Shown here piece after piece: positions 34,506 to 41,685 of a stretch of DNA of 64,000 nt. Location of the stretch: NCBI RefSeq assembly GCF_900104065.1, contig NZ_FNLC01000001.1, positions 186,001 through 250,000 on the forward strand, in the 5' to 3' direction. The position numbers and the translations under genes are program-made. Every line of letters begins with the position of its first letter. Positions within the stretch are counted from its first letter, which is position 1. The notes below the pieces were generated by a model. The model did no database searches. It was not told the origin of the DNA and was given only the letters and a program-made list of their open reading frames with translations. The stretch is from Natronobacterium texcoconense (GTDB taxonomy: Archaea; Halobacteriota; Halobacteria; Halobacteriales; Natrialbaceae).

Positions 34506-35486
34506 TCACCGCCCGTCGAGAAAGGCGTCGGCCGCCGCCTCGCCGTCCGCGTACAGCGACTCGAGAAAGCCGGGACTGCGCTCGAGTTTGGTCCGCCAGC
34601 CGAGGTCCGGCCGGCCGAAGCGGATGCGTTCGATCTCGGTGTGGGTGAACTTCTCCGGCAGGTAACCCGCCTCGATCCAGTCGTTGACGTGTCTGACGAA
34701 GCTTATCTCGCCGTTGAGCGACTTGTTCCCCGCGAGTTCGTTGCGACGGTCGGCGATGCCGTCGGCCGACTTCGGGACGCGACCCCGTCGCTCCGGGTTG
34801 ATCTTGATGACCCAGATTTCGTCCGGATCCGGCGTCTCGCGGTTCGTCACGAAGTCTTTGACCGGCGGATTCTTCGAGAACAGGCCGTCCCAGTAGTAGC
34901 TGCCGTCGACTTCGACGGCCCGGAAGACGTAGGGGATCGCGGCCGAGGCGAGGATCGCTTCGGGTGAGAGTTCGTCTTCCCGAAAGAGCCTGAACTCGCC
35001 GGTGAGGACGTCGATCGCGCTGATCAACAGCGCGGGTTCGCTGCCGTCCAGCAGTCCCGGAACGGCCTCGAAGTCGACGTGTTCCTCGAGCAACCGGAGA
35101 AACTCCCGTCGGCTCCACAGCGCTGCCGGCGACTGATAGGGGCTGACCTCCGGGAACGGAACGCCCATCCGCTCGAGTCGGCTCCCCCAGCGGATCGCGC
35201 TGTTGGTCAGTCGGTCGACCGGCTCGTTAGCTGCCATCTCCGCCCAGTAGTCGGACAGCAGTTCTCCCGGCTCGTGATCTGGATGCTCGCGACCGTACCA
35301 CGAAAGCAGCGCACAGACGGCTCCACCGGAGGTGCCGCTGAAGGCGACGATTTCGACGTCGTCCTCGAGGGTGGGATCGCTCAGCAGCCGATCGAGAACG
35401 CCCGCAGTGAAGGCCGTGTGGCTGCCACCACCCTGGCAGGCGATGGCAACCGACGACGTGTCAGAGGGCACGTCGTCCCGTATCAC
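34506..35486 (-). CDS. Patatin-like phospholipase family protein
   Basis: A 326-residue alpha/beta hydrolase with a Ser-Asp dyad: oxyanion loop CQGGGSHTAF (17-26), nucleophile Ser53 in GTSGG, and Asp200 in DGLFSKNPP. No signal peptide, so it acts in the cytoplasm or on the inner leaflet. Haloarchaeal lipids are ether-linked, so a classic acyl-ester lipid substrate is doubtful; the natural substrate is unknown. It lies 42 bp upstream of the channel gene on the same strand. Confidence 0.85.
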   Translation of the reverse strand: MIRDDVPSDTSSVAIACQGGGSHTAFTAGVLDRLLSDPTLEDDVEIVAFSGTSGGAVCALLSWYGREHPDHEPGELLSDYWAEMAANEPVDRLTNSAIRWGSRLERMGVPFPEVSPYQSPAALWSRREFLRLLEEHVDFEAVPGLLDGSEPALLISAIDVLTGEFRLFREDELSPEAILASAAIPYVFRAVEVDGSYYWDGLFSKNPPVKDFVTNRETPDPDEIWVIKINPERRGRVPKSADGIADRRNELAGNKSLNGEISFVRHVNDWIEAGYLPEKFTHTEIERIRFGRPDLGWRTKLERSPGFLESLYADGEAAADAFLDGR

Positions 35487-35568: not shown

Positions 35569-35853
35569 ATGGCAATCGAGTGGAAACTGTTCGCGGATCT
35601 CGCCGAGTACGCAGGCGAGAAACACGTTGCGGTCGACGTCTCCGCCGGAGACACCGTCGAGGACGCCCTCGAGGAACTGCTCGACGAAGTGCCGGAACTC
35701 GAGGACCGCGTCCTCGCGGACGGCGACCTTCGATCCCAGATCAACGTGCTTCGCAACGGGACGAACGTTCTGGTCGAAGAGGACGGACTCGAGACGCAAC
35801 TCGAGGGCGGCGACGAACTGGCGCTGTTTCCGCCGGTCAGCGGTGGCGCATAG
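35569..35853 (+). CDS. samp1: Ubiquitin-like small archaeal modifier (SAMP1/MoaD type) ending Gly-Gly-Ala
   Basis: A 94-residue beta-grasp protein closely resembling SAMP1/MoaD: MAIEWKLFADLAEYAG at the start, QINVLRNG in the middle and DELALFPPVSGG near the end. In SAMP1 the C-terminal diglycine is adenylated and conjugated to target Lys or used as sulfur carrier for molybdopterin. Here Gly92-Gly93 is followed by Ala94 and then the stop, so the diglycine is not terminal as encoded. The ATG follows a divergent patatin gene by 82 bp. Confidence 0.85.
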   Translation: MAIEWKLFADLAEYAGEKHVAVDVSAGDTVEDALEELLDEVPELEDRVLADGDLRSQINVLRNGTNVLVEEDGLETQLEGGDELALFPPVSGGA

Positions 35854-35977: not shown

Positions 35978-36301
35978 TTACGGCTTCGGGGCGTGATCCC
36001 TGTGGACGATGATACGTCCATCGTCGGTTAGATCGACGATATACGCGCTCTCGAGAGCGATTTCCAGGGACACGACTGTACTGCCGTCGCCGGAACTCCC
36101 GGCGAGAAGTTCATCGAGTGCGTTCGGGTCGGTGTGTTCGTGCAGGACGAATCCACTCTCGGCCGGCATCTCCATCGGTTCGACGCCTTCGAGGGCGCAG
36201 ATCGTACGGACGACCGCGATACTGGGGGATACCTCGGCGTCGTACTCGTACTCAACGGCGTATGGTGGCTTCTCCATGGTAGGATTGTTAGATTGTGTCA
36301 T
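35978..36301 (-). CDS. HalOD1 output domain protein
   Basis: A 107-residue single HalOD1 domain: SIAVVRTICALEGVEPME, FVLHEHTDPNALDELLAG and VVSLEIALESAYIVDLTDDGRIIVH. It is the second stand-alone HalOD1 protein of the window. TTATAAA at 36334-36340 may be its TATA box with a short leader; a second ATG lies 24 bp in. Confidence 0.78.
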   Translation of the reverse strand: MTQSNNPTMEKPPYAVEYEYDAEVSPSIAVVRTICALEGVEPMEMPAESGFVLHEHTDPNALDELLAGSSGDGSTVVSLEIALESAYIVDLTDDGRIIVHRDHAPKP

Positions 36302-40698: not shown

Positions 40699-41685
40699 TC
40701 AGTTGCTCGCGTTATCGCCGGTTCCCTGGTCCTGGCTCTGCCCTTGCTGCCCATTACCGGGGTTTGTCGGCGGCGCGGCTGTCTCGTCATCTGGGTCCTG
40801 TCCGGGCGGTTCATCAGGTTGCCCGCCACCGTTTCCGTTCTGGTTGTTCTCAGGGTCTGGCGTCGTGTCGGTCCCGTTCTGTCCGGGCGGTGTCGACGTA
40901 CCGGGCTGGCCCGACTGATTGTCGTCGTTGCTCTGTCCCGGCGCCGTTCCGTTCTGTCCGGGCGGTGTTGCGTCCTCGCTCTGTCCGGGCGGTGTTGTGT
41001 TTTCGCCCTGTTCGGGTGGTGTTACGTCGTCGCTCTGACCAGGCGGTGTTGCGTCCTCACTCTGTCCGGGTGGCGTCGCGTTCTGTCCACCTCGTTCGTT
41101 CGCTCCACCGCGGTCTCCCGGCGGTCCGGCACCCGGTTGCTGTGCGAGTCCAGGAATCGAACGTGCTGCATCGGCCACGTCGGAATCCGCGATATTCGAA
41201 GCGTTCGACTGGATCGTCTCGAGACGGTCCTCGTCGATCCCTGCTGCCGTGGCACGGGGTTTCGTCCGCTCGATCTCGCGCTCGAGAGAGTCGATTTCGA
41301 CTGCCAGTCTGGTCATGCGGGCGCGGTACTCCGCCGACTCGCCACCGGACTCGTTCTCGGCTTTCAGTTCGCGGAGTTCCTCCCGTTCGGTCTCGAGACG
41401 GTCGATCTGTTCCTCGAGGTCGTCGGTCCGGTCGGCGACGAGGTCCGATCGCCGGTCGTCGTCCGACCGCTCGTAGCTGGCGTCGAACAGGCCGGACTGG
41501 ACCGACTGTTCGGCGTCGGCGGCACTGGCCTGCATGAAGGTCGCGATCGTCGCGTTGGCGTCGGACGGTTCCGCGTCCGACTCGGCAGTCGAGTTCGTGG
41601 CGGCATCGGCTGCAACCGGCGCGATCGCGAGTCCGACGAGAGCGACGACGGCGAGGAGGGCGACCGTCCGAATCGTAGTCATCAC
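40699..41685 (-). CDS. Secreted protein with TPPGQ repeat tail (DUF7096-like N-terminus)
   Basis: A 328-residue exported protein. A Sec-type signal covers residues 1-28 (hydrophobic core VALLAVVALVGLAIAPVAA). The N-terminal domain (about 45-175) is helical and Glu/Arg-rich, resembling haloarchaeal DUF7096 (LFDASYERSDDDRRSDLV). The tail (about 190-328) is low complexity with repeated TPPGQ units. No anchor is seen. CTTTTTAAT at about 27 bp upstream is the TATA candidate. The role is unknown; surface adhesion is a guess. Confidence 0.65.
   Translation of the reverse strand: MMTTIRTVALLAVVALVGLAIAPVAADAATNSTAESDAEPSDANATIATFMQASAADAEQSVQSGLFDASYERSDDDRRSDLVADRTDDLEEQIDRLETEREELRELKAENESGGESAEYRARMTRLAVEIDSLEREIERTKPRATAAGIDEDRLETIQSNASNIADSDVADAARSIPGLAQQPGAGPPGDRGGANERGGQNATPPGQSEDATPPGQSDDVTPPEQGENTTPPGQSEDATPPGQNGTAPGQSNDDNQSGQPGTSTPPGQNGTDTTPDPENNQNGNGGGQPDEPPGQDPDDETAAPPTNPGNGQQGQSQDQGTGDNASN
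40815..41115 (-). repeat. Coding tandem repeat (TPPGQ units)
   Basis: Within the secreted protein, at least six ATPPGQ-like units recur at a spacing of about 7-10 residues: NATPPGQ, DATPPGQ, DVTPPEQ, NTTPPGQ, DATPPGQ, STPPGQN. Codon choice differs among units, so the repeat is old rather than freshly expanded. Confidence 0.7.

Follow-up and report, generated by a model that had tools for sequence, protein, structure and literature searches.

The SAMP1 gene of Natronobacterium texcoconense raises the question of how a ubiquitin-like modifier can be activated when its gene encodes a residue beyond the diglycine. Post-diglycine residues must go before activation in the eukaryotic ubiquitin, SUMO and NEDD8 precursors and in bacterial QbsE; the eukaryotic ubiquitin-like precursors are processed by cysteine proteases, in lineages that differ from the haloarchaea. 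SAMP1 is one of the main models for ubiquitin-like modification in archaea, and the version found in Haloferax volcanii needs no processing.

The gene lies at 35569-35853 (+) of the window, by which is meant the whole 64,000-nucleotide stretch of DNA that was analysed. It encodes a MoaD-type beta-grasp ubiquitin-like protein of 94 residues that starts MAIEWKLF and ends LALFPPVSGGA*. The match to the SAMP1 family NF041918 (125.1 bits, cut-off 60) covers positions 1-91 of the 91 in the profile, the sequence-based match to PF02597 (Pfam ThiS; the MoaD/ThiS beta-grasp domain) scores 55 bits, and the top PDB match is H. volcanii SAMP1, 3po0 (E 5e-21), in an alignment that runs through the diglycine. 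Gly92-Gly93 (35842-35847, +) aligns with the terminal Gly-Gly of 3po0 and keeps its VSGG context within FPPVSGG. The diglycine is not the encoded C-terminus, because Ala94 (GCA, 35848-35850) follows it and precedes the stop codon TAG (35851-35853), giving a one-residue tail (35848-35853, +) that is read directly from the translation. The first-pass annotation had placed Ala94 after Gly93 in a SAMP1-like protein, and the translation, NF041918 and 3po0 bear out both its coordinates and its residue numbers.

By orthology the protein is a SAMP1 with a tail, not a SAMP1 of the standard form. It is like H. volcanii SAMP1 in family, predicted fold, FPPVSGG end and the presence in the genome of genes for UbaA and an HvJAMM1-type partner, and unlike it in that the aligned H. 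volcanii chains finish at Gly-Gly, whereas an Ala comes after the diglycine here. The nearest relative (L003), a congener with 87% identity, stops right at GG; FPPVSGG is fully conserved between the two, and their genes close with GGT GGC GCA TAG and GGT GGC TAG, respectively, a difference of one in-frame codon. As context only, the gene is flanked by a divergent upstream gene for a patatin-like phospholipase (34506-35486, -; PF01734) and a convergent gene for a HalOD1-domain protein (35978-36301, -; PF18545). The 124 bases between the SAMP1 stop codon and the convergent gene leave the tail and that gene without overlap.

The reading that we favor, with a probability of about 0.7, is that the window gene encodes a pro-SAMP1 that would be trimmed by the organism's own desampylase before activation by UbaA; the same estimate covers the proposal, part of this reading, that tails are easily gained and lost and are tolerated only with the desampylase present. 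The gene product would be a precursor of SAMP1, extended by one residue at its C-terminus, the HvJAMM1-type desampylase would hydrolyse the Gly93-Ala94 bond and so expose the diglycine, and UbaA would adenylate the exposed diglycine, leading to conjugation and to sulfur relay to MoaE. In the mature protein, from which Ala94 has presumably been removed, Gly92-Gly93 would be the site of activation by UbaA. We infer this removal, and its place ahead of UbaA, from passages of two papers (PMC4443979, PMC6043591) and from the co-occurrence of tails with the desampylase, which is itself a direct observation and is described below.

According to these passages, HvJAMM1 cleaves a linear SAMP1-MoaE fusion in vitro directly behind the final Gly, its activity renders the fusion functional in vivo, where the fusion sustains DMSO respiration if jamm1 is present but not otherwise, and the E1 requires a free C-terminal glycine (PMC4443979); CsJAMM of Caldiarchaeum cleaves CsSAMP precursors, and the action of CsRpn11 on CsUb is sterically limited at P1', a Cys79Gly change making cleavage faster and Cys79Glu blocking it (PMC6043591). 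As far as the same passages go, the SAMP1-MoaE system is like the present one in having a peptide bond after the SAMP1 Gly-Gly and a haloarchaeal desampylase, and the fusion product is functional; the fusion was engineered, however, whereas the tail is natural here (PMC4443979). The C. subterraneum SAMPs and CsJAMM offer archaeal SAMP precursors that are cut by a JAMM protease, as predicted here, but they belong to a distant lineage with a true ubiquitin system and their cleavage was observed in vitro (PMC6043591). The CsUb precursor likewise has a post-Gly-Gly tail that is removed by a JAMM protease under steric limits at P1', but it is a true ubiquitin with a nine-residue tail and the protease is of the Rpn11 type (PMC6043591). 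JAMM processing of ubiquitin-like precursors is thus already known, and a natural haloarchaeal pro-SAMP1 tied to the desampylase was not found described in the literature searched. No title or abstract on SAMP precursors or post-diglycine tails in haloarchaea was found there, which is weak evidence of absence since subscription papers were mostly outside coverage; the available sections of Makarova and Koonin 2010 (PMC2948915) discuss C-terminal GG and CC motifs and contain no mention of tails.

The window's genome (G000) encodes the machinery that such a pathway would use. The HvJAMM1-type desampylase (L044; C2:1228266-1228709) matches PF14464 and scores 145 bits against NF041370 (cut-off 130), a predicted UbaA (C5:187907-188629) scores 492 bits against NF047750 (cut-off 450), MoaE is encoded at C5:100494-100817, and a second Prok-JAB protein, JAMM2, at C1:1273760-1274071. 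The search for JAMM-type proteases proposed in the first-pass annotation therefore yields two candidates, one of them above the desampylase cut-off. When the desampylase is read against HxH(x7)S, which we take to be the JAMM catalytic motif, the Glu and the HxH...Asp are present and a Thr occupies the Ser position, which counts against the pro-SAMP1 reading. The corresponding stretches were fetched from 20 relatives and the motif was recovered in 18; 17 of these 18 have Ser, and the Thr is shared only by the genus-mate L357, from the genome of L003. The enzyme is mostly 60-70% identical to desampylases of genus g29 (family f5) and about 50% identical to most of those in its own family, a pattern that suggests acquisition by horizontal transfer. 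Another genome, G106, has two desampylase copies (70% and 54%).

Outside the window, the same genome encodes a MoaD-like (SAMP3-like) paralogue (L038/L153; C1:332238-332519) that ends VAGGCR. Paralogues of the L153 type are tailed in all five genomes of the genus (CR, SR, CDGR, CDGR and SHRQ), and among the best 30 members of the paralogue family 10 are tailed, always with Cys, Ser or Ala as the first residue. From the tails across the genus it follows that the genus probably handled post-GG residues before its SAMP1 gained Ala94.

The first-pass annotation took it that SAMPs end with Gly-Gly, and also proposed that C-termini be compared in related genera. The encoded SAMP1 C-terminus was read in 308 of the 392 genomes of the order; 242 end at GG, in line with the premise, and 66 do not as encoded, so that the premise was too broad. 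The 66 tailed SAMP1s are spread over 26 genera, which rules out uniqueness: a tail of the Ala94 type is not peculiar to the window SAMP1 but is a recurrent pattern across haloarchaea, where in many cases SAMP1 is probably produced as a precursor needing trimming.

These counts were assembled in steps. One SAMP1 was taken from each of the 130 genomes with the best matches (111 ending at GG, 19 tailed). All 392 genomes were then searched with two DNA patterns in which a sense codon comes after FPPVSGG, giving 28 and 38 genomes, or 65 together and 62 once three with non-SAMP1 hits had been removed. A stop-codon pattern applied to 80 desampylase-negative genomes gave 62 matches, all TAA, TAG or TGA, and 73 further SAMP1s were read directly. 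The patterns are blind to tails starting with Cys, Tyr or Trp, to TCN serine codons in VSGG and to VTGG-like variants; direct reading added four tails of the kinds that they miss. The 84 genomes left out of the reading comprise 76 that are enzyme-positive, with no verified SAMP1 pattern match for a tail, and eight that are enzyme-negative, namely G103, G016 (where the paralogue alone was found) and six without a match. Pattern matches in G145, G103 and G064 and a second match in G004 were dropped because their translations are not SAMP1, whereas the distant SAMP1-like proteins of G009 and G025 (family f9) were retained. Second matches in G040 and G065 (genus g38) are short SAMP1-like paralogues and were excluded; these frames (L211 and L212) end in FPPVSGG plus SFSLRI or LFSLRI after a divergent upstream part. 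A related-locus search with the window SAMP1 had returned six loci, just three of them haloarchaeal.

Desampylase presence was called with the genome's own JAMM1 protein as query, which has matches in 281 of the 392 genomes and none in the other 111. This query does not match the genome's own JAMM2, and so the calls are type-specific. All 66 tails are in desampylase-matching genomes, and none was found in the 103 non-matching genomes read (Fisher p = 4e-14). On the desampylase-positive side the read set over-represents tails, and the pattern count over all genomes is fairer; it places tails in 62 of 281 positive genomes and 0 of 111 negative ones (p = 2e-10). When genomes are collapsed into cells of genus by enzyme state, 24 of 70 positive cells against 0 of 31 negative cells are tailed in the all-genome pattern search (p = 6e-5), and 26 of 55 against 0 of 28 in the read set (p = 2e-6). 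Two genera, g19 and g63, are mixed in enzyme state, and the sole tailed genome in each is the enzyme-positive one; if genera are instead classed by majority, these two become tailed enzyme-negative genera and p within families is 0.01. Had a divergent desampylase escaped detection in some of the negatives, the expected effect would be a weaker association, not a spurious one. Two further observations count against the pro-SAMP1 reading: 139 of the 205 desampylase-positive genomes read have no tail, and the MoaD-like paralogue is tailed in G016 (59% complete), where no desampylase was found.

The alternatives differ in what they predict for this distribution. The first-pass annotation had offered either a precursor needing a protease or a blocked protein with another role, and the results favor the former: tails are confined to genomes with a detectable HvJAMM1-type desampylase, and HvJAMM1 cuts the SAMP1-MoaE fusion in the passages cited (PMC4443979). 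If Ala94 stayed in place, UbaA activation, conjugation and sulfur relay would be blocked, as the requirement of the E1 for a free C-terminal glycine (same passages) implies, and the protein would have another role or be starting to decay. We consider this unlikely, though slightly less so than the other alternatives. Because the nearest relative lacks a tail, that of the window SAMP1 may be of recent origin, too recent for decay to be visible; indeed Ala94 itself may be too young to be judged by dN/dS. However, dN is 0.067 and dS 0.382 between the window SAMP1 and L003, with FPPVSGG fully kept, and dN is below dS in six pairs of tail-bearing SAMP1s (for example 0.030/0.463), one of which has very little divergence. 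Since tailed SAMP1s of whole genera are under purifying selection in this way, a blocked and decaying SAMP1 is less likely. In addition, the tailed MoaD-like paralogue would have to be blocked too, leaving only the one ending in YGG, and a link with the desampylase is not predicted. Removal of the tail by a different enzyme, either JAMM2 or a general carboxypeptidase, is improbable as well. The genome does encode the second Prok-JAB protein, and a single Ala should be easy for a carboxypeptidase, but the distribution of tails tracks the JAMM1 type in calls that are specific to that type, and a carboxypeptidase would permit tails in desampylase-negative genomes, where the 103 read have none.

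It is equally improbable that tails reflect neutral turnover of stop codons where SAMP1 is redundant, with the link to the desampylase a matter of shared ancestry. Tail state does change at least 29 times on the SAMP1 tree, the enzyme-negative genomes cluster in a limited set of genera, and a strict test with independent pairs found only four supported pairs (median p = 1) and had no power on the weak trees of this short protein. On the other side, a within-family permutation of enzyme state across cells gives p = 1.3e-4 in the read set, and none of 4000 gain/loss simulations left the 71 enzyme-negative tips free of tails, with a mean of 24 tails expected there, on a weak unsupported tree with uniform rates. 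The tails are also far shorter than read-through would make them. They range from 1 to 104 residues and are usually 1-5 residues long (five or fewer in 53 of 66), whereas in-silico read-through of GG-ending genes gives a median of 65 codons, with five or fewer in 6 of 111; random read-through as the sole source of tail lengths is rejected on this null. The simplest dismissal of the tail, a sequencing or assembly error at the stop codon, is very improbable. The window sequence has a single assembly as its basis, but a whole in-frame codon precedes the stop on a contig of 1.46 Mb, comparable tails were read in 65 other genomes, and the paralogue in the same genome is also tailed.

The first residue of the tail bears on the proposed desampylase cleavage. 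Of the 66 tails, 32 begin with Ser, 13 with Ala, 10 with Arg, three with Gly, two each with Cys and Leu, and one each with Glu, Val, Met and Thr. A Ser, Ala, Gly, Cys or Thr at P1' thus accounts for 51 tails, which fits the steric limits described for CsRpn11 in the passages of PMC6043591; the tails that begin with Arg, Leu, Glu, Met or Val speak against the pro-SAMP1 reading. In six loci of family f14, genus g38 (L184-L189), the DNA of the tail, judged by eye, seems to run into the 3' end of a convergent gene, and there the tail sequence need not reflect the protease, which counts against the pro-SAMP1 reading. The longest tail, 104 residues in G014 of the same genus, is Arg-rich at its start.

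If pro-SAMP1 is the correct reading, and roughly one haloarchaeal SAMP1 in five is a precursor, then the desampylase has an additional function, which may be essential, the maturation of eukaryotic ubiquitin has its parallel in the haloarchaea too, and tailed modifiers will escape annotation or proteomics in which a Gly-Gly end is taken for granted. The co-occurrence predicts that the desampylase is needed for SAMP1 function only in tailed species. A broader proposal, which we hold tentatively and with the odds somewhat against it, is that haloarchaea follow a pro-SAMP strategy in which the desampylase, beyond its part in deconjugation, would be indispensable for the maturation of tailed SAMP1 and of its paralogues, that the post-GG residue would tune the supply of active SAMP, and that loss of the desampylase would be possible only where SAMPs end at GG.

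Some minor observations can be added. In genus g29, tailed genes and some untailed ones share a downstream block, as read by eye, and the tail resembles a short TCGGTCG duplication ahead of the stop codon. A conserved block around CGTTTCAAAC lies just 3' of the SAMP1 stop codon in loci L195, L196, L197, L234, L239, L274, L278 and L303 of this genus; it is partly palindromic, is present with and without a tail, and is perhaps a terminator or a binding site. In the window's genome, a third MoaD-like protein (L040; C1:1390988-1391254) ends VYGG and scores 60.2 bits against NF041918, just above the cut-off of 60. The product of L041 (C1:1046452-1046556), with a weak ThiS match, ends YPFMFCC and so resembles the CC-ending beta-grasp arCOG00539 that appears in the available sections of PMC2948915. 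Within the window, a predicted protein at 40699-41685 (-) contains consecutive TPPGQ-type repeats in the second half of its sequence.
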